A stretch of DNA of 64,000 nt, taken from the NCBI RefSeq assembly GCF_027409185.1, contig NC_084472.1, forward strand, positions 17,842,524 to 17,906,523, read 5' to 3'. Positions within the stretch are counted from its first letter, which is position 1; every line of letters starts with the position of its first letter. Both the position numbers and the translations under genes were made by a program. Of this stretch, positions 3,159 through 61,062 are shown one piece after another. Source of the DNA: Cynocephalus volans (taxonomy: Eukaryota > Chordata > Mammalia > Dermoptera > Cynocephalidae). The notes under the pieces were generated by a model. That model was not told where the DNA came from. It searched no databases and was given only the letters and a program-made list of their open reading frames with translations.

Positions 3159-4723
3159 GGTAGCCCCCAGAGCCCTGTCCATGTGGCTTCCACCTGGCTA
3201 CACCCTCCATAGTCCTGTCCCATGTAGCTATGTGACAGGAACCCTGCATCACCAGGCCATAGCCTCTGAAACCCCACCCCTCACAGCTTCTACCACTGGA
3301 GCCCAGTGCCTGCCTGGGCACAGCCCCTAAAGCCACATGCCATGAGGTCCTGACTGTCCTCAGCCACAGCCATGCCTGTGAGTGCCACCCAGACTGCTGA
3401 GTCTACCCAGAATAACTGAGTCTCCCTAAAATGACTGAGACTATGGAGTCTACATGGAACCCCAACTAAAACATCCAACTCAAAAGGCAACATGAAACAA
3501 ATCTATAGGCGGGAATCTCTCTCCTCAAAAGCAATTGGAGTAACAGAAGAAGCAACTGTTCCACCAAATGACTAATGCAGGGGTACTAGAAAAATGAAAA
3601 ACAAGAAAATATGACATCCCCAAAGGAATACAAGAACTCTCAAATACCAGATCCCAAACTACAAGAAGCCCTTGAAATGTCTGAAAAAGAATTCCGAGCA
3701 ACAATCTTAAGAAAACTAAGTGAGAAACAAGAAGAGTCACATAAATGACAATGAAATGAGAAAAAAAATCCAAGACATGAAGGAGGAAATTTACAAAGAG
3801 AAAGATGTCATAAAAAATGATGTAGCAGAACTCTTGGAACTGAGGGTCTCATTTAATGAAATAAAAACTACATTCAAGAGCTTAAGCAGCAGTCTAGAGC
3901 AAGCAGAAGAAAGAATTTCTGATCTTGAACAGTGTTTTCAAAATAAGCCAAGACAAAAAATAAATAAATAAAAGAAAAAGAAATTTTAAAAATGAAGAAA
4001 ATCTTTGAGAGCTATCAGACAACCTCAAGTACACAAACATCTGAATCATGGATGTTCCAGGAGGGGAGGAAAAAGGAAAAGACATTGAAAAACCTATATG
4101 ACAAAATAATAGCAGAAAATTTTACAGGTATTGGTAGAGAAAAAGATTTCCAGATACAAGAGACTCAAAGTTACCCAAACAGATTCAGTACCAAAAGATC
4201 CTTTCCAAGACATATTGCAGTCGAACTAGCAAAAGTCATAGACAAAAAAAGAATCCTAAAAACAGCAATAGAAAAACATCAAGTCACCTGCAAGGAGTCC
4301 CCATCACACTAACAGCAGACCTCTCAGCAGAAACCCTACAGGTCAGAAAAGAATGGGATGATATATTTAAAGTTGTAAAAGAAAAAACTGCCAGCCAAGA
4401 ATACTATACCCAGCAAGGCTATCCTTCAGATATAAAGGAGAAATAGTGTGTTTCCCAGACAAACAAAAACTGTGGGAATTCAGCACCACACAACAACCCT
4501 TACAAGAAATCCTCAAAGGAGTCCTACATCTGGAATCCAAAAAACAATAATCACCACCCTGAATACACAAGAAAGAACAAATTCAACTGGTGGAACACAT
4601 AGGCAAAGAGAAATAGAAAAAAACTATACCATACCATCTCAAAAAACCAACAAACTCAAAAGACAAACAACAGGGAAAGAATGGAACAAAAGATATTTAA
4701 AACAACCACACGAAAGCAATTAA

Positions 4724-5197
4724 ATGACAGGAATTAGACAATACCGGTCAATAACAACCCTAAATGTAAATGTATTGCATTCCCCACTGAAAAGATATAG
4801 ATTGACCAGATGGATTGAAAAACTAGACCCAACTATATGCTGCCTACAAGAAACCCACCTCACCTGTAAAGATTCACACAGACTAGTAGTGAAAGGATGG
4901 AAAAAGATACACCATGCAAATGGAAGCCAAAAAAGAGAAGTAGTTATTCTTATATCAGATAAAATAGACTCTAAACCAAAAACTATAAAAAGAAACAAAG
5001 AAGACCATTATATAATGATAAATGGATCTATATCTACCAAGAAGACATTAACAGTCATAAATATATATGTTCCCAAGATAGGTGTGCCCAGATATATAAA
5101 GCAAATGTTATTATTACACCCAAAGAGAGATAGACTCCAGTATAGTAATAGTTGGGGACCTGAACACCACTCTCTCAGCACTGGGCACATCATCTAG
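4724..5197 (+). pseudogene. L1 ORF2 endonuclease-domain fragment
   Basis: 157 codons read from the ORF2 start, including TLNVNVLHSPLKRYRL, CCLQETHLTCKD and a later GPEHHSLSTG run in a shifted frame where the family has a conserved GDFNT-like motif. The APE-type endonuclease of L1 nicks target DNA at TTTT/A sites. Here it is truncated by frameshift, and the rest of ORF2 follows in other frames to about 8110. Confidence 0.85.
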
Positions 5198-6712
5198 GCA
5201 ACAAATCAACAGAAAAACACAGGATTTAAACTATGCATTAGACCAATTGGACTTGGTGGACATATACAGAACATTTCACCCAGCAACTAGAGAATATACA
5301 TTCGTCTCATCAGCACATGGAACATTCTCCTAGAAAGACCACATGTTAGGTCACAAATCAAATCTCAACAAATTTTTAAAAATTGAAATTATTTGAACTA
5401 TTTTTCAGATAACAATGGATTAAAACTAGAAATCAATAACAAGTGAAACTCTGGAAACTATCCAACTTCGTGGAAATTGAACAACTTGCTCCTGAATGAC
5501 CTATGGGTCCAAGAAGAAATTAAACAGGAAATCAAAATATTTTGAAACTAATGAAAATAAAGATGCATCATAACTAAACCTGTGGGATACAGCAAAAGCA
5601 GTATTAAGAAGGAAGTTAATTGCAATAAATGCTTACATCAAAAGAATAGAAAGATTTCAAATAAACAGACTAATGCCACACCTCAAATAACTTGAAAAAC
5701 AAGAAAAATCCAATCCCAAAGTTAGATGAAAAGAAATAATTAAAATCAGAGCAGATAAATGAGATAGAGACCAAAAATATGATACAAAAAATCAATGAAA
5801 CAGAAAGTTGGGGTATTTTTTGAGAAGATAAACAAAATAGATAAACCATTAGCCAGATTAACTAAAAAAAGAAGAGAGAAGACCTGAATAACAAAAATCA
5901 GAATGAAAAAGGAGACATCACAACTGATACCAGAGAAATACAAAGAATCATTAGAGACTACTATGAAAAACAATATGCCCACAAATTAGAAAATGGATAA
6001 ATTTCTGTACAATACAGACTACCAAGACTGAACTGAGAAGAAACAGAAAAACTGAACAGACCAATAACAAGCAACAAGATTGAAGCAGTAATCAGAAATC
6101 TTCCAACATAGAAAAGCCCAGGACCAGATTGCTTCACCATTGAATTCTACCAAATCTTTAAAGAGAAATTAATACCAATTCTTTTCAAATTATTCCAAAA
6201 AATTGAAAAACAGAGGCCATTCTCCCAAACTCATTCTATGAGACCAGCATCACCCTGATACCAAATCAAAGATACAACAGAAAAATAAAACTACAGGCCA
6301 ATATCCTTGATGAATACAGACAGAAAAATCCTCACCAAATATTAGCAAACAATACAGCAGCGCTTCAAAAAGATTATACGTCATGGTCAAATGGGATACA
6401 TCCCAGGGATGCAATGATGGTTCAACATATGCAAGTCGGTAAATATGATATACCACATCAACAAAATCAAGGACAAAAACCATGCGATCATCTCAATAGA
6501 TGCAGAAAAAGCATTTGACAAAATTCATCATCATTTCATGATAAAGATTCTCAACAAGTTAGGCATAGAAAGAATATCAACAAAATAAAAGTGATATTTG
6601 AGAAACCCACCACCAGTACCATCCTGAATGGAGAAAAGCTGAAAGCTTTTCCTTTAAGAACAGGAGTAAGGTAAGAATGCCCACTCTCACCACTCTTATT
6701 TAACATAGTATA

Positions 6713-7292
6713 TTGGAAGTACCTGCCAGAGCAATTAGACAAGAAAAAGAAATAAAGGGCATCCAAATTAGAGAAGACAAAGTCAAATTTTCCCTGTTTG
6801 CCAATGACGTGATCCTATGTATAGAAAACCCAAGAGACTCTACCAAAAACCTCTTAGAGATGATAAATGAATTCAGTAAGGTTTCAGGATACAAAGTCAG
6901 TATACAAAGTCAATAGCACCTTTGTACTCCAACAACAAACTAGAAGAAAAAGAAATGCAAGGAAACATATTTACATAGTCATCAACAAAATAAAATACCT
7001 AGGAAAAAATTTAACCAAGGAGGTGAAAGATTTCTACAATGAGAACCACAAATCACTGCTGAAAGAAATTAAAGAGGACACCAAAAGATGGAAAGACATT
7101 CCTTGTTCATGGATTGGAAGAACCAGTGTAGAGAAAGTGTTCATACTACCCAAAGCCATCTACAGATTCAGTGTGATCCCCATCAAAATACCAATGATGT
7201 TCTTCACAGAAATAGGAAAAACAATCCTAGCATTCATATGGGACAACAAAAGACCCCGAATAAACAAAGCAATTCTGAGCAAAAATAAATAA
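6713..7292 (+). pseudogene. L1 ORF2 reverse-transcriptase and connection fragments
   Basis: Two overlapping frames (6713-6916 and 6867-7292) carry L1 reverse-transcriptase sequence around the polymerase active site and the stretch after it ([20 protein letters not shown], then a [22 protein letters not shown] phrase). The active-site aspartate pair is altered to FAND. The frameshift between them and the stops further on make this a relic. Confidence 0.85.
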
Positions 7293-8969
7293 ATAAATAA
7301 AGCCAGAGGCATTACACTTCCTGACACCAAGTTATACTACAAAGCTATAGTACCCAAAAAGCATGGTACTGGCATTAAAAACAGACACTCGGACCAATGG
7401 AACAGAACAGAGAACCCAGAAATCAACCCATGTACTTACAGTCAACCAATCTTGGACAAGGGCACCAAGAACACACAATGGGGAAAGGAGAGCCTCTGTC
7501 AATAAGTGGTGTTGGGAAAACTCGATATCCATGTAGAGAAGAATGAAACTAGATCTGTACCTCTCACTTTATACTAAAATCAACTAAAAATGAATTAAAG
7601 ACTTAAATATAGACCTGAAATTTTAAAACTCCTTAAAGAAAACATAGGAGAAATACTCCAAGATGTAGAGCTGGACAAAGACAACAAAAGCACAGACAAC
7701 AAAAGACACAAACTAAAAAGCTTCTGCACCACAAAGGAAACAATCAAGAGAGTGAAAAGACAACCTACAGAATGGGAGAAAATATTTGCAAATAATACAA
7801 CCATGAGGGATTAGTATCCAGTATATACAAGAAACTCAAACAACTTAACAGTAAAAAACAAATAATCCAATTAAAAAATGGGCAAAGGAACTGAATAGAC
7901 ATTTTTCAAAGGAAGACATACAAATGGCCAACAGGTGCATAAAAAAATGCTCATCATCACTAATCATCAGGGAAATGCAAATCAAAACCACATTGAGATA
8001 TCATTTCACCCCAGCTAGACTGACTATTATCAAAAAGACAGAGAGTAACAAAATGCTGGCAAGGATGTGGAGAAAGGGGACCCTCCTACACTGTTGGTGG
8101 GACTGTAAATGAATAGAGCCATTATGGAGAACAGTATGGAGTTTCCTTAAACAACTCCAGATAGAACTACCATACAATCCAACAATCCCACAACTGGATA
8201 TATATCCAAAGGAATGGAAATCATCATGTCAAAGGGATATCTGCACTCCTATGTTTATCACAGCTGTATTTATGGTAGCCAGGCTATGGAACCACCCTAA
8301 ATGTCCATTGATGGATGACTGGATGAGGAAAGTGCGGTATAGATACACAATGGAATACTACTCAGCCATAAAAAAGAATGAAATTCTGCTATTCACAGCA
8401 ACATGGATGAACCTGGAGAAAATTGTTTAGTGAAACAACGCAGACCCAGAAACAGAAATATTTCATGTACTCACTCATAAGTGGGAGCTGAATTAATAAA
8501 TAAATAAACAATAAAGACAGAAAGAAACAACAATCACAATAATACATTGAACTTAGAAGGAGAGAACAGAACTGTGGTTACTAGAAGTAGAATGAAGGAT
8601 GGGGAGGAGATGAGGGAGGGGAGTTAATAAGAAATTAATGAGAAATTGGTTAATGGACACAAAGAATGGTTATGTATTGTAATGATGAATAAGCTAACTA
8701 TTCTGATTTGGCCATTACATACTGTACACAACTATTAATACTCAACTTTGTACCCCACAACTATATATAATCAATTACGCTTTGATAAAAAGTAAATTTA
8801 AAAAAAATTAAACTGAGAAGAAACCTAATTTTTTAAAAAAACAGTACTGTAAAATATCCCATCAATCATTGTTATGATGATTGTATATTGAAGTGATAGT
8901 ATTTTAGATATGGTGGTTTAAATAAAATATGTTATTAAAAATTTTTAAAGATATTTAATATTATTTACA

Positions 8970-18200: not shown

Positions 18201-18858
18201 AGCATTTTGGCTCTTTACTTTAGATGTAACATGAATATTTGTATCATTTACCCTTTTTGAGAATGATAACGTATTTAGCGGCAATGGAGGCTTTCCTTTG
18301 TGTTGCTTGATATCTATTATAAAAATGGTTGTTAATCTTCATAATTGACATTGATCACACAGTGTTCTTAATTGACCTCCAGGTCGGTTTTTGTTTTTAT
18401 GGTCTTCAAAATTTTCCCTTCACTGTATGTATGTAAATGTCAGAAGTATATTTACTTCCTATTGCTGTATGATGATTTTAAATAAGATGCTTTAAACAAC
18501 AACAAAGAAAACCAAAAACCCAAGATGGCATCAGACAGAGTCCCCTGCATCTACAGCTTCCCTGTCATTAGTTTGTTGCAGGGAGATGTTAATATGACCT
18601 TTCCTTTGTTAGAAAAGAAATCTGTAGCCCTTCCCAGAATCCTCTTGTTAACTGTCTTTTTAACCTAAGCTGGAGGTTGTCTGACACATGAATGGTGAGC
18701 TTTTTTTATGAGCTACACGTATTGTGGACATTGTGTCACACATTGCTTTCTCATTTCTAATGTGTTTTTAATTTGCAAAGCATGCATGTGTCTTCCACAG
18801 CAGTAGAATTGAGTCAGCATTTCCGAGTCCAGATATTGCTTTATGCAAACAAGAAGAG
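15241..18858. other. Repeat-poor intronic sequence
   Basis: No exon, RNA gene or clear interspersed repeat recognised. Ordinary AT-rich single-copy text. It could hold regulatory elements, but no specific site is claimed. Confidence 0.4.
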
Positions 18859-19155
18859 TCAGGCTTAAGAATGCTGCATCATGGCCTTAGATTTCCTGAA
18901 ACACACATGTGAATGAATTTCACTTTGAATGTTATCGAATAAAAGAAGACACTTGAGAAAGGCTTTTTTCCCCCAAGAACTTCTCTTGCCTCTTGGCAAG
19001 TGAATTGTCAGGCTTAAGAATGCTGCATCGTGGCCTTAGATTTCCTGAAACACACATGTGAACAAATTTCACTTTGAATATTATTGAATAAAAGAAGACA
19101 CTTGAGAAAGGCTTTTTTCCCCAAGAACTTCTCTTGCCTCTTGGCAAGCGAATTG
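18859..19155 (+). repeat. 149-bp tandem duplication
   Basis: Copy 1 is 18859-19007 and copy 2 is 19008-19155. Both begin tcaggcttaagaatgctgca and end ...cttggcaag(t/c)gaattg. The junction is direct, without spacer. The copies differ at only a few positions (for example catcatgg/catcgtgg and gaatga/gaacaa). The open frames across it on both strands are not supported as genes. Confidence 0.9.
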
Positions 19156-35303: not shown

Positions 35304-35524
<221 letters not shown>

Positions 35525-35631
35525 TAGACTCCTTTTAAGAGAAGAAGTGGGGATTCCAGATCTTGGGACCTCTGAAATAAATTGGCTAAATGTTAGTGAA
35601 TGCTAGTCTCCTTTTCCCCAACTGTCTTTTA

Positions 35632-35706
35632 TTTTTTATTTTATATTTTATTTATTTATTTATTTATTTATTTATTATTTTTTATTAAATTATTTTATTT
35701 TATTTA
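35632..35706. repeat. (TTTA)n tail of the composite retroposon
   Basis: T-rich (TTTTA/TTTA) run, which is the A-rich 3' tail of the minus-strand element. Confidence 0.85.
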
Positions 35707-36189
35707 TTGAATCAAAATCGATTATACATATTTTTCAGGTTAAACATTGACATATGTTGATTAAATCAATATTACTAGCATATATATTGTTACAAATCAT
35801 AATTATTCTTTATGCCCCTTGTCCAACCTCTCCCCTTCCCCCCTCTAATTGCCCTAGATTTCTTCTCTCCTTCTTAAAGAATAATGGTTACTTTATTAAC
35901 TTGTTGCCTAGATGATCTGTCCAATGCTGAGAGATGTGATCAGGTCCCCCAATATTATCATAGAGCAGATGCTTCTTCTGTTACTCTGAAATGGGTTTTG
36001 TGGAAAGAGACATCCTCTTCTTTTCTTTGTCTCTGCTGGTGACTATTGTGTCAATGCACTCCAGTGGTTGGCAGACCATCTGCGTGGTGGCTGTGGCATC
36101 TAGCTGCTTTTGCAGCAGCCATGGTTATTGTGGTGGCTGTGGTGGGCCACCCACATGGAGGTAATGTTTTTGGCATGCTCCTTGGCACT

Positions 36190-37400
36190 GGCGGTATGCC
36201 TTGTTGTGGGTGTGTTTGGTCCCCTTCTCCGTGCCTCTGGTCCCTGGGCAGACTCCAAGGTGCTGGTGCCATGTGCCTGGTTGTGGGAGAGGGGTCCAGT
36301 CCCCTTCTCCATGTCCTGGGTCCCTGGGCGGGCCCTGAGGTACTGGCGCAGTGTGCCTGGTTGTGAGAGAGAAGTCCATTCCCCTTCTCCTTGACTCGGG
36401 TCCCCAGGCAGGCCCCAAGGTGCTGGCATGGTGTGCCTGGTTATGGGAGGGTGGTCTGGTCCCCTTCTCCATGCCCCAGGACTGTGGGCAGGCCCCGAGG
36501 CACTGGCTTGGTGTGCCTGGTTGTGGGAGAGAGGTCCATTCCCCTTCTCCTTGACTCGGGTCCCCAGGCAGGCCCCAAGGTGCTGGCGTGGTATGCCTGG
36601 TTAAGGGTGGTCCGGTCCCCTTCTCCATGCCCCAGGACCGTGAGTGGGCCACGAGGCGCTGGCTTGGTGTGCCTGGTTGTGGGAGAGAGGTCCAGTCCCC
36701 TTCTCCGTGCCCTGGGACCATGGGCAGGCCCCAAGGTGCTGGCTTGGTGTGCCTGGTTGTGGGAGAGAGGTCCAGTCCCTTTCTCCATGCCTCAGATCCC
36801 TGGGCAGGCCCTGAGGCACTGGTGCAGTGTGCCTGGTTATGGGAGAGAGGTCCAGTCCCCTTCTCCATACCCCAGTTCCCTGGGTGGGCTCTGAGGTGCT
36901 GGCATGTTGTGCCTGGTTGTGGGAGGGAGGCCTGGTCCCCTTCTCCATGACCTGGGTCCCTGGGTGGGCTCCAAGGTGCTGGCATGTTGTGCCTGGTTGT
37001 GAGAGGGTGATCCGGTCCCTGACTCCATATCCCGGGTCCCGGGGTGGGCCCCAAGGCGCTGCCTCAGTGTGCCTGGTTGTGGGAGGGTGGACCGGTCCCC
37101 TTCTCCATGTCCCAGGACCGTGGGTGGGCACCAAGGAGCTGGCTTGGTGTGCCTGGTTGTGGGAGAGAGGTCCAGTCCCCTTCTCCTTGCCTCAGATCCC
37201 TGGGCAGGCCCCAAGGTGCTGGTATGGTGTGCCTAGTTGTGGGAGGGGGGTCCAGTCCCCTTCTCCATGCTTCAGGTCCCCAGGCTGGCCCCAAGACACT
37301 GGTGCAGTTTGCTTGGATGTGGGAGTGGGGTCCGGTCCCCAGATCCAAGCCTCCAGTTCCCAGGCAGGCCCCAAGGGTGCTGGTGGTGTGCCTGGGCCGG
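36190..37400 (-). repeat. 80-bp VNTR inside the composite retroposon
   Basis: The marker gcctgg recurs at 36275, 36355, 36435, 36515, 36595, 36671, 36751, 36831, 36911, 36991, 37071, 37151 and, with one change, at 37231 and 37311, then at 37390. Spacing is 80 bp except one step of 76 and a final step of 79. Each unit carries tccccttctcc, a gggcaggccccaagg-like run and a ggtgtgcctggttgtggga-like run. The array is GC-rich in AT-rich surroundings. Frames of up to 309 codons on minus and 255 on plus exist only because the repeat lacks stops. Confidence 0.95.
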
Positions 37401-38278
37401 AACTAATTTTTTGTCCTTTGCTTCTAACATGGGGGAACTTCCTGTGGGAACCAGTACTTCAGCTGTGTGGTTGTTTAGATTGCTACTTTGCTGCTGTTTC
37501 ACTAGGGAAGGCTTTTTGTGCAGCTCAGGGTTTAATGGTTGATCTTATTGGTACTTCCTGCTCTCCAGGGACCCGGTGGATCTGTGTTCTGTAGAATCTT
37601 TGGTCTGGGTCTGAGTTTTTTCATCAAACTGCACCCGTGCAATTCTGCATTCCTGACCAGTCTCCTCTGACTGGTCCTGTGCTGATTGGGGGGCAGGTCA
37701 GCTGTCCTTTTGTGTCCCAGTGTTCCCCTGGTGGGCACGTCTCCTCTACCACCCATGCTCCAAACACTTCCCATGCGTTGGTCCCTTACAATGACTCACT
37801 GGCCTCTGAGCGGCTCCCCTTTTTCAGTTGTTCTGGCTCCTTGCTCCAGCATGGGTCCTCGGGAACCCTATTAGTGGTCCTGGGGGCTGCCAAGGCTGTC
37901 TTCTCCCCTGCTGCCTCCAAGCAACTCCATCTGAAGGGCACAGCTGTGGCTTCTGCCGGCTCCTGCTCCATGCGCTCAGCAGCTCGAGCCTTAAAGCAGC
38001 TGCATCCCGAAATGCTCAGAGCAGCTTTTTCTTTCTCTTATCGTAGTTTCTCCTGCCTTCATGAACTCCATAGGTCTCTCCTCCTCTTCCCCTGAGCTCC
38101 AGCAGCCCCAGCTTGGCTGATGTTACATTTTTATAGTTGTAAATTTGGTTGATTTGTGTGAGAGAGTGACACTGGGGACTGTCTATTCTGCAATCTTGAT
38201 TGAATCTCCTCCCAACTATGTCTTTTAGAACTATGAATTTTTCTTCGGATTATTTTTCCATAAGCATCTCTTTATTAA

Positions 38279-39380
<1,102 letters not shown>

Positions 39381-48551: not shown

Positions 48552-48694
48552 TCAAAATCTACTTTAAATATGTAAATTTTGAAATTCCTACATTTTAGGA
48601 TTAAAAAGATATAGTAGTTTATTTTTATAATTTTTGCTCTATGTGATGAGAAGGTTTTAGGCTGCTGTTTGCAGGAAATTCTCTATAACATGCT

Positions 48695-50007
48695 TGCCGG
48701 AGACCAGCTCTGCAGGATTTGTTGGACCTGAATAGGTGGTGTGGATTCGGTGAAAAGGAAGAGACGGACCACAGATGTCTAGTGCAAGTGTGGACAACAA
48801 CCACAAGAATCTTGCTTTATTTATATGTTTTTACTTAATCTTTTACATAATGATTCATCTTTCAATCAAAACATTTTTTTAATTTCATCTCTATAGAAAA
48901 AGAAAAATCAGAATGTTCCAAAGCACTCATGCTGTGATAAAAGCACCCACTCATGCATTAATAGTTCACCCCAAAGCCTGTGGCTTGTGGCCAGGAAACT
49001 ATACAATAGCAGCATGCTTGGCTTTAAAACGTCAGACTTTTTGTCTGAATCACAATTCTTAACTTTTTAAACTTACACATAAACTTATATTCTAAATTTC
49101 TATTAAATCTTACCTATATTTAACAATTTAATGTTTTATGTTTTATATTAACTATTCTAATTCTTAACCAAAATCAGAATGTCTATAATATGATTTTTTA
49201 TAATGAAACTTAATTATAATGTTTTATTATATTTTGCACTACTATTAAAAACAAGTATACTTTAATCTAAACAAAGTCTATTAATATCAAAACCTTTTTA
49301 TATATCTCTACTATTTTACCTATTCATCTCTATAGTAAAACTTTCTGTTTTGTTGCCAATTGACTCTGGGAACAGTACAAGGAACAAAGTGAAAAATTAA
49401 ATGATACTACTCAAGCTAACCAAAACACGCTATATCATTCTTATCATTACTAAGGAAAGAACATGTTCTTGGTAAATCAAGTGAAACTGTGGGAGTGGGG
49501 AGAAACAAAGAAATCTGTAACTGGTTGTGATCAATTAGTTGTAAACACTACTGCACTTGGACCCACCGTCTCCCTGGGGGAATGTAGATAGAAATCCAAC
49601 ATAATAACTTCATTCCACACGTACAAGAGCATGACCACAGCCACAATGGGTTAATGCACACATCACTAACAAGAAAGATTAATAACAAAATTAAATGGAG
49701 CTAACCCATACCAGGAACATGCATCAAAAACACCTTTAGTACTGACAATGCCTTTTAAATAAACCAGTTAATTTTGATGTATTTTAACATGTCCTTTGAG
49801 AAACTCCAGGGAATTTCCCAAAGCCATACTAAGACAAAAGGTTAGGCTATTTAATTCTGGGAAGGCTTGTCAAGCAACCAAAGGTGAACAAACAAGAAAT
49901 TCCACGGAGCCCTGCCACACACACAGGACCCCCTTGTAGCCTGCAGAACAAGGGGTATCACTCCCCAGGCTCCCATGCTATTCCCTATAGCAGGATGGCT
50001 CACAGCA
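48695..50007 (-). mobile_element. Solo LTR, endogenous retrovirus class II-like
   Basis: 1313 bp with TG...CA ends on either strand (plus strand: tgccggagaccagctctgca ... ggatggctcacagca), flanked by the exact 6-bp repeat catgct (48689-48694 and 50008-50013). On the minus strand an AATAAA lies at 48821-48816, about 120 bp before the 3' end, as expected for a polyadenylation signal. The length, 6-bp duplication and absence of internal genes suggest a solo LTR of a betaretrovirus-like ERV; the class is inferred. No viral coding sequence is present. Confidence 0.75.
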
Positions 50008-51048: not shown

Positions 51049-51252
51049 CAATTTAGCTTTTCATATATGAAGGGGGAAAACATATTCTTTTTCAACAGCA
51101 TGTTATAGAGAATTTCCTGCAAACAGCAGCCTAAAACTTTCTCATCACATAGAGCAAAAATTATAAAAATAAACTGCTACATCCTTTTAATCCCAAAATA
51201 TAGAAATTCCAAAATGTAGGTATTAAAAGTAGATTTTGACTTTTTTTTAATG
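51049..51252. repeat. Inverted repeat, right arm
   Basis: Uninterrupted arm: caatttagcttttcatatat ... tgctctatg reversed ... ttttaatg. Matches the left arm 48431-50061 once its SINE and LTR are removed. Confidence 0.85.
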
Positions 51253-56775: not shown

Positions 56776-57499
56776 TTACTCTGCTATTGTGTTTATTAAA
56801 TACCCCCACAGATTTGAAACTTTGCGTCCTTTCTGTTGCCTTATAAATGGACATAATTTTTCACTAACCACTTCTCCATGTGAGAGTGTAATACAGCAAC
56901 AAAATGGTAGGTTTTTCTTAGAGACGCATGCTGTTGAGATTTTTACATGTTCAGTACTCAGTTGTCCAAAAGCTAATATTTATCCAGCATTTCTTACTTA
57001 TGATGGATGGTTTTCGTATGCATTAAGATATAGTGGCACAGGTAATGATATTAAATGCTGTACCCCACAGATATGTACTATCAACTATGTTTCAGTAAAT
57101 AAAAATAAAGTACATAAAAAATAGAAAAAGACACAATGGGAAATTTTTTAAGTTTCAGATATTCCAGAATCCCTGTGGACTCCAATATAAATTTGTCTCA
57201 GTTTTTATATAAATTATGCAGATCCCAAAGGGCATGGAGTAATTGATTTTAAAAGATATTGATCCAGTTGACAGTGCATGTGCCCCAAATCTACTGTGTA
57301 GTTGGAAGACTTGACTGCCAGAAAAACTAGAAAGGTGATTTGGCTGTAAGAGATCTTATTTTTTGTTATCAATGATAGCAAGAACTTTGACCAGATAAAA
57401 TCTCCCTTGAACCAAGGCTAATGCTGAAACCATACAGAGTCTTAAAAACGGACTTGTAAGATTCTAACTCTTTCATATTGTTAACTGCTATTGACCGGA

Positions 57500-57853
57500 A
57501 GGTTCTCTTCTTAGCAGATTATCCAGACCCATTGCTTTTCTCTCTTCACACTCGTGCTTTTCATCTCAGAGAACAGACAGAAGAAAAGATAAGAGACAAA
57601 ACTCAACCTCAGTGATTTGTCGATTCTGATTCACACACTAATCTTTTCTGAATTACGTGGACCTATCAGACAAGACTAGTTTTTCAGCACTATCCATAAT
57701 TATTTCAGCTGAAAGGTTCTTACAGCTTTTTACTGTGTTTTGGGTGTGGTATGTCTGCCTCTCAGGTCGGGCAGTTTTCCACCAAAGCATGGTGGTTGCA
57801 CCAGAGTGCAATTTCCATGAAGGCAGGGGCTCTGTCTGCTTTGTTCACTGCTG
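57500..57853 (+). repeat. Direct duplication, copy 1 (left of coding exon 4)
   Basis: Starts ttctcttcttagcagattat and runs to gtctgctttgttcactgctg, matching 60708-61062 in the same orientation with scattered differences. The last about 70 bp (gaaggcaggggctctgtctg) resembles an L2-type 3' end, so an interspersed repeat may be part of it. Confidence 0.85.
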
Positions 57854-59400
57854 AAGATTTGGTACCTGAGATAGTACCTAGTACATTGTAGAGTACAAGC
57901 ATTGGTTGGTTAGTTGGTTGGATGGATGGATGGATGGATGGATGGATGGATGGATGGATGGATGGATGGTGACTTTAGGAGCTTGGTGAACTAGGCAGCT
58001 ATTGACAGCCATTTTTTTTGGACTACAGCTTCAAGGTATAGGACAAATGGCCAAAGGCTTTCAAATACAATCCATCTCTGAGTATATTGTAAGTCATTTA
58101 TAAAAATTATGTTAATTTTATTTTTCTATAAAGTGACAGTAATAAACTATTGAGTCCGTGTTGTTAACCATAGGTTATGACTGTCTCGTTTACCACTGTT
58201 TCTCCAGTGCTTAGCAAAGTGCCTAGCATATAGGTAGGTGCTCAATAAATAATTGTTAAATGAATAATAATAAACTGGACTGCCCATTTATAATTGGTTT
58301 TAATTGATTGTCAGCATTCTGAGATTGGGATATTGTGAGACATTCTGTATTTAATCCTTGCTTCCTTTCTCTTCTCTCCTTATATATCTTTGTTAATTAT
58401 AGAGCCAGATGGTTTAGGGGTTTGAAAAGAGTAAGTCACTTCATTAGTGAATTTATTTTCAGTAAATTATTTGTGTATAGAGATCTTGTCTTTATACGAT
58501 ATGGAGTGCCCTTTCTTATTTACAACTTTTTTGTCCTGTTCACCTATATGTAAATGTGTTGTGTCCTCATCAGATGCAATCAGAGTAACTCACTCTCTGA
58601 CTCTTACTCTGTGTGTTAAAGGGAACCAAAAAGTCAATTTTTAACAAAGCAGACCATGGTTCCTCATCATCCCAGCCTTCTTCATTTCTTCTTTCCACGT
58701 TCCCTGCTCCATCCAGGTCACTGAAAGTTTCATTTCGTTTGATTTGGCTGAGTGAGGAATTGTTTGGATGTTAGATCTAGAGGAATAATCTGGCTTGAAT
58801 AACGAAGGGTTGAATCAAGAGGAAATGGGGATCTCATGGCACTCATGTCAGAAAGCTTATAGCTACATCTCATAGAAACCAGCAGCTGACACTGCCCTGA
58901 ATTTGCACATCTCTGTGTGCTGTGCTGTCCTCTCTGCAGACCAGCTTCCTTTTCATAACTTAGTTTGTTTTTTCCACACATTAGCTTACACATGGTTGGC
59001 ATAGCCCCAACTCAGGTTCTAATTTTAAAAAACCTTACAAATCCAGGGTCCAGTACCATCTGACTGACTTTTTGCATTTATTTAAAAATTTCAGGAGAGA
59101 GACTCTGGCTGTCCCAGATTGGGTCAGATATTTGTCCACAGTCTCATCCACTGTCGCCGTGGAGGTCAGTTCATGTGCTGGGTAGGGTGGAGAACCAGAG
59201 CTAAGACCCACAGCCTCTCTAGGAAGGGAGTGCATGGAGTAGAAATGATGGACATCTCCAGGACCAAACTTTTTTTTCTTCTTATAAATGTTATCACATT
59301 ACACTCTCCATTCTATTTCCTTAACCATTAGCCTTTTAGAGCAGCATTTAAACTATTTCCAGTCTTTCACTGTGATAAAATAACTGTTTAAAAATTTTTG
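57854..59400. other. Intronic sequence with (GATG)n
   Basis: (GATG)n at 57919-57969 and an L2/MIR-like tail at 58190-58262 (tgcctagcatataggtaggt). The rest is unassigned. Confidence 0.4.
57919..57969. repeat. (GATG)n microsatellite
   Basis: About 12 tetranucleotide units, following a ggttggttagttggttg lead-in. Confidence 0.95.
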
Positions 59401-60645: not shown

Positions 60646-60707
60646 TACTTTTAACAGAAGCTGTTCAAGTTTAGGGAAGTGCATGTCTCTGTGCTGGTCA
60701 TGGGAAG

Positions 60708-61062
60708 GTTCTCTTCTTAGCAGATTATCCAGACCCATTGCTTTTCTCTCTCTTCACACTTGTGCTTTTCACCTCAGAGAACAGACAGAGGAAAAGATAA
60801 AAGACAAAACTCAACCTCAGTGATCTGTTCATTCTGATTCTCACACTAATCTTTTGTGAACTACTTGGACCTGTCAGATAAGCCTACTTTTTCGTCACTC
60901 TTCACAATTATTTTAGCTGAAAGGTTCTTATAGCTTTTTACTGTGTTTTGGTGTGATATGTCTGCTGCACAGGTCAGGCAGTTTTCCAGCAAGGCATGGT
61001 GGTCACACCAGAGTGTAATTTCCGTGAAGGCAGGGGCTTTGTCTGCTTTATTTAGTGTGAAA
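60708..61062 (+). repeat. Direct duplication, copy 2 (right of coding exon 4)
   Basis: Same sequence as 57500-57853 (about 3.2 kb apart, same orientation), with an extra ct near 60745. Coding exon 4 lies between the copies. Confidence 0.85.

Follow-up and report, generated by a model that had tools for sequence, protein, structure and literature searches.

In the window, the whole 64,000-nucleotide stretch of Cynocephalus volans DNA analyzed here, a composite element of 2.58 kb lies on the minus strand (38210-35631). It is antisense within an intron of a host gene, between two coding exons which match the Pfam family GREB1_N when joined (E 6e-10); we take this gene to be GREB1L. Read 5′ to 3′, the element consists of an L1-type 5′ UTR, an array of 80-bp repeats, a pre-ORF1 stretch, a scrap of ORF2 endonuclease sequence, an L1 3′ UTR with an AATAAA, and an A-rich tail. 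The features of the locus, with the evidence for each, are:

38211..38227, minus strand: 5′ target site duplication, 17 nt (score 11; best control 8)
37396..38210, minus strand: L1-type 5′ UTR that opens with a G-rich stretch and has a first motif resembling that of L1 (window L1 match, other copies)
36204..37395, minus strand: VNTR, 15 complete repeats of roughly 80 bp each (tandem repeat scan and manual unit split)
35961..36203, minus strand: pre-ORF1 stretch of an L1 5′ UTR (L1 matches, copy alignment)
35891..35960, minus strand: ORF2 endonuclease coding piece, 70 nt, with a join at each edge (L1 match, copy alignment)
35702..35890, minus strand: L1 3′ UTR with AATAAA at its end (L1 matches, copy alignment)
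35632..35701, minus strand: A-rich tail (read from the sequence)
35617..35631, minus strand: 3′ target site duplication, 15 nt (duplication test against controls)
35342..35498, plus strand: host gene, the upstream one of the two coding exons (Pfam GREB1_N when joined with the next exon)
38306..38503, plus strand: host gene, opening part of the coding exon that follows, the stretch that was translated (Pfam GREB1_N when joined with the upstream exon)

Each part of the element was matched to L1s in the window, and the order and coordinates of the parts given by a sequence-only reading, made before any search, hold. The start of the element near 38210, a G-rich stretch ending in GGAGAT, was judged from other copies. 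The first 5′ motif is CAAGATTGC in the window copy and CAAGATGGC in 17 of 27 copies, and we take the latter to be the YY1 site found in human L1. The 5′ part (38208-37799) aligns with an older L1 in the window (48368-47951), with 276 of 453 aligned columns identical. Behind the array, positions 36051-35944 match 3478-3586, part of the pre-ORF1 region in a different L1 of the window, the clear part running to about 35962. The scrap (35962-35880) matches ORF2 endonuclease sequence at 5141-5226 (66/86), and for the 3′ part the 3′ ends of three L1s in the window gave matches. The internal joins of the window copy fall at 35961/35960 and 35891/35890. The sequence-only reading had placed them close by, near 35955 and 35890. 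The two target duplications of 17 and 15 nt, differing by one 2-nt indel, also stood up, their score of 11 exceeding the 8 of the best of 17 cross-locus controls.

The window contains several other repeats. A monomeric tRNA-like SINE, presumably the tRNA-Ile SINE of colugos, is matched at nine places in the window (2565, 10236, 10571, 27153, 41410, 48456, 55544, 59400 and 61702), and two of these are also Rfam tRNA hits. This SINE had no matches in viral contigs, as expected for a mammal-free collection. A Y RNA match occupies 49467-49567 on the minus strand. There is also a 360-bp direct repeat pair (57497-57855 and 60703-61061, 89% identity), a 150-bp unit repeated head-to-tail (18858-19155, 95% identity), and an inverted pair of 143 bp (48552-48694 and 51097-51239, 92% identity).

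A dispersed family in the genome

The source genome (2,814,384,482 bases in 130 contigs) holds at least 64 distinct copies of the composite, spread over 16 contigs, with both internal joins common to all. The composite is a mobile, multi-copy, dispersed family and not a one-off. The 64 copies came from three sets (40 + 16 + 8, one overlap removed). In each search the best 40 candidates were scored, and the first-look totals cited below are not copy counts because they include L1s.

An 801-nt 5′ UTR query, for which the best 40 of 7,689 candidates were scored, gave 39 non-self matches; each is 85-90% identical and covers 798 or more of the 801 nt. The 20 best of these 39 were fetched with 9.9 kb each, and 17 of the 20 have all parts of the composite in order, where neither ORF1 nor ORF2 intervenes. 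As exceptions, L009 and L023 end inside the array, and L011 has 47 nt of the pre-ORF1 stretch followed directly by the end of the 3′ UTR. When the 17 were aligned with the window copy, the joins agreed in 18 of 18 apart from small indels. At join 1, the same 3 nt are missing from two copies, L019 and L025, which perhaps form a subfamily.

A 221-nt query laid over both joins gave the same picture. The best 40 of 2,544 candidates were scored, and all 40, the window copy included, cover both joins; the 39 non-self hits are 95-98% identical to the query. A later 3′ UTR query returned ten hits at 97-98% to the composite 3′ UTR, all of them composites (eight fetched, two already known). Both joins are present in all eight fetched, with extra changes at a join in L056 and L057. 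The element thus neither occurs once nor has joins that vary from copy to copy, the two outcomes that the sequence-only reading had named against its own proposal. Of its two readings, that of a non-autonomous L1 derivative of this lineage is supported.

The stretch that contains L025 also carries another element (reverse strand, 6541-7452), with a 5′ UTR 77-82% like that of the composite. What follows this 5′ UTR is not the 80-bp array, and ORF1 probes found no match beyond it. A repeat of about 95 bp was suspected in L025 and dropped, as a tandem repeat finder gave no confirmation.

The 80-bp array

A tandem repeat scan placed the array of the window copy at 36219-37395 with a period of 80, and within the element it reported only this array and the TTTA-rich tail. 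Splitting the array by hand gave 15 full units from 37395 to 36204, in which the two-unit block u10-u11 is duplicated as u12-u13 (91% and 95% identical). The consensus unit is 66% GC. The VNTR pattern had no matches in viral and GTDB contigs, as expected for mammal-free collections.

Array length ranges from about 0.38 to 1.65 kb across the 17 copies and the window copy. Unit counts across copies are lower bounds, as splitting ended early in some arrays, such as that of L010. Unit similarity is 0.756 within one copy and 0.758 between copies (221 units), and the first units are the most alike between copies (0.90). Arrays of varied length, together with target duplications belonging to each copy, were what the sequence-only reading had expected of a mobile family; the arrays do vary, and duplications above controls are present in 19 of 27 copies tested.

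Insertion, coding capacity and age

A target duplication scoring above controls was present in 19 of the 27 copies tested, 13 of 18 in the first set and 6 of 9 in a set chosen by the junction query. Those no better than the best cross-locus control were L010, L016, L022, L027 and L028 in the first set and L029, L059 and L063 in the second. Of the nine junction-chosen copies, six extend to the L1-type 5′ end, and the other three are 5′-truncated. The truncated L030 has a perfect 18-nt duplication near its truncation. In L060, also truncated, the duplication has one 2-nt gap and ends one base before the truncation. L059 is without its 3′ end. The hallmarks of an L1-mobilized retroposon (target site duplications, an A-rich tail and 5′ truncation) are all present in the family. 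In L014, the 3′ UTR and the target duplication are separated by two A-runs with about 80 nt between them, including another AATAAA, an arrangement suggestive of 3′ transduction by a composite copy.

There is no conserved open reading frame across 18 copies; the longest ATG-started frames are 97-286 aa and differ in place and length. An autonomous L1 has ORF1 and ORF2, and the composite has 70 nt of ORF2 alone. The non-VNTR parts diverge from the majority consensus by 4.2-6.4% over all sites, and by 2.7-4.4% (mean 3.5%) once CpG columns are left out. With a substitution rate of 2.2e-9 per site and year, the non-CpG divergence gives an age of about 16 million years for the family, which may be older or younger than this because most copies were chosen as those nearest to the window copy.

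Very probably, then, the composite is a non-autonomous VNTR retroposon family, built from the 5′ and 3′ UTRs of an old L1 lineage together with an 80-bp VNTR and 70 nt of ORF2, and moved in trans by L1.

Related L1s and the question of a living parent

An alternative is that an autonomous L1 subfamily with the 80-bp VNTR survives, and that the composites descend from it by internal deletion and move in cis or in trans. L1s of a comparable design do exist. A 63-bp tandem repeat stands directly before the pre-ORF1 stretch, at the same place as the composite array, in two of the four L1s read: one in L011 (G000:C18:45082700-45092600, reverse strand 4218-4568, 5.4 copies) and one in L034 (1944-2086, 2.3 copies). 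Both of these L1s have ORF1. The 80-bp and 63-bp units show no similarity above that of shuffled sequence (207 of 300 shuffles score as high).

The searches for L1s joined to the composite's own untranslated regions speak against a living parent. A chimeric query was made from the composite pre-ORF1 consensus and the ORF1 start of the L1 in L011, and the best 40 of 7,199 hits were scored. All 40 run from the pre-ORF1 stretch into ORF1, but at only 81-86% identity to the query. In the three such L1s that were fetched, the pre-ORF1 stretch is 76-78% like that of the composite, and the 80-bp repeat is absent from all three. At the other end, a query joining the end of ORF2 to the composite 3′ UTR (best 40 of 8,040 scored) found the ORF2 end alone in 24 hits, one of them the window L1. 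A further 6 extend across the junction at 76-78%, and the remaining 10 are the composites. None of these best 40 of 8,040 links ORF2 to a 3′ UTR more than 78% like that of the composite. Among the best 40 hits of either query, no ORF-bearing L1 has the composite's own UTRs. The ends of the composite thus form a lineage of their own, as far as the scored hits go. Judged from these hits, a surviving parent with the 80-bp VNTR is improbable.

Origin of the joins

The second possibility in the sequence-only reading was an L1 subfamily with a 5′-UTR VNTR, of which the element would be a copy shortened by splicing or deletion. As ancestry this is partly right, given the L1s with a 63-bp repeat, although their unit is a different one; an origin by splicing is not supported by the joins in the relatives read. 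In its fullest form the splicing account would have a single spliced transcript of a VNTR-bearing L1, resembling the transcripts behind SpIREs, retrotransposed repeatedly, each insertion being a dead end. A fixed splice would give identical joins in every copy, and spliced L1 RNAs can retrotranspose (PMC5860796).

The sequence at the joins largely argues the other way. Neither of the two L1s read at join 1, that of L011 and the window L1, has a GT after the left edge of the join. For join 2, we aligned 16 L1 endonuclease regions (of 39 non-self hits) and the window L1, and a GT follows the left edge in none of the 17. An AG does lie just left of the ORF2 join in 4 of the 17 (L039, L043, L049 and the window L1), a point in favor of splicing. 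The four L1s that share the composite's TATGATAATA (L036, L037, L044 and L050) have no AG before TATGATAATA. Recurrent splicing would also call for a living parent with the same UTRs, and none is found among the best 40 hits of either query. We consider splicing a very unlikely source of the family. Join 1 may contain a 2-nt overlap (TA), and the joins probably arose by deletion or by reverse transcriptase jumping.

That the element is a one-off deleted L1 copy or a local duplication, which could be entertained while a single copy was visible before the genome search, is next to impossible because the searches show many copies with the same joins (64 on 16 contigs). A satellite or segmental duplication is ruled out because the copies lie at scattered sites in unlike surroundings and have target duplications of their own.

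A model for the family

We return to the non-autonomous retroposon moved in trans. Two deletions or reverse transcriptase jumps would have created it, leaving the VNTR before the former start of ORF1 and removing the rest of both ORFs. RNA polymerase II would start at the L1-type 5′ end, which may have promoter activity, and the product would be a non-coding RNA polyadenylated at the AATAAA. The proteins of autonomous L1s may then take up this RNA in trans, nick a T-rich target, and copy the RNA by target-primed reverse transcription. The outcome would be target duplications, A-rich tails and some 5′-truncated copies, with the array expanding and contracting from copy to copy. The joins, arrays, tails, duplications, truncation and lack of a conserved open reading frame are traces seen in the copies; the transcription and trans-uptake steps are what we infer from them.

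Comparison with known systems

The VNTR composites SVA, LAVA, PVA and FVA have been called specific to hominoids (PMC4432496, PMC7353768), and all four share a CT-hexamer/Alu-like 5′ region (PMC4432496). As these families are described in the text available from PMC4432496, the colugo composite resembles them in being non-autonomous and non-coding, with a central GC-rich VNTR of variable length, an A-rich tail and target duplications. L1 is the likely mover in both cases, as the insertion hallmarks suggest for the composite, and LAVA, like the composite, contains a piece of L1 (PMC4432496). There are also differences. The composite is without the CT-hexamer/Alu-like region, its 5′ part being L1 5′ UTR from the first base, and it has no SINE-R, PTGR2 or FRAM part; its repeat unit is 80 bp, compared to 30-50 bp in the four families (PMC4432496). 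Its flanks are nearly all L1 5′ UTR and 3′ UTR, and its host is not a hominoid.

The sequence-only reading had called the element SVA-like. This is apt for the architecture of VNTR, tail and duplications, but membership in SVA fails on the 5′ region and the unit length; we do not class the composite as an SVA because the CT-hexamer/Alu-like 5′ region is absent. The best reading is that the composite is analogous to hominoid SVA and LAVA and was built independently.

Other L1 derivatives share single features with the composite. HAL1 (half-L1) is a non-autonomous, L1-derived family that lost coding sequence and kept ORF1; the composite likewise derives from L1 by loss of coding sequence, and differs in keeping no open reading frame and in having a VNTR. 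Rodent L1s carry tandem monomers in the 5′ UTR, and the L1s with the 63-bp repeat found here also have an array in that place. In contrast to both, the composite has its array in an element without ORFs, and its 80-bp unit is unlike the 63-bp unit. SpIREs, as far as they are treated in the available text of PMC5860796, are L1 copies with internal parts missing and the L1 5′ end kept. The human SpIREs described there lose parts of the 5′ UTR, or of the 5′ UTR and ORF1, by splicing (PMC5860796). The composite lacks both ORFs, no GT stands at the left edge of either join in the L1s read, and its copies need not be dead ends.

We found no description of such a family in the full-text literature, where our search was thin on subscription papers, and the accessible portion of PMC13174262 makes no mention of colugo or Dermoptera. 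Judged from the literature, apart from repeat libraries, and subject to a check against such libraries, a family of L1 ends and a VNTR is a new form of the known VNTR-composite design.

It is tempting to speculate further, if tentatively, that VNTR composites had a second, independent origin outside hominoids, from L1 ends alone, and that the VNTR is a convergent requirement for the use of L1 proteins in trans by a long non-coding RNA; we would not yet bet on this. If it is true, tandem repeats in L1 5′ UTRs would be a recurrent raw material for such parasites. The role of the VNTR can be tested directly, because the ends of the composite are L1 ends and the VNTR is the sole part without an L1 counterpart among the relatives read. 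The same architecture in a non-hominoid mammal offers, beside SVA and its kin, a second natural experiment on the role of the VNTR and on the RNA features that allow a long non-coding transcript to be carried by L1 in trans.
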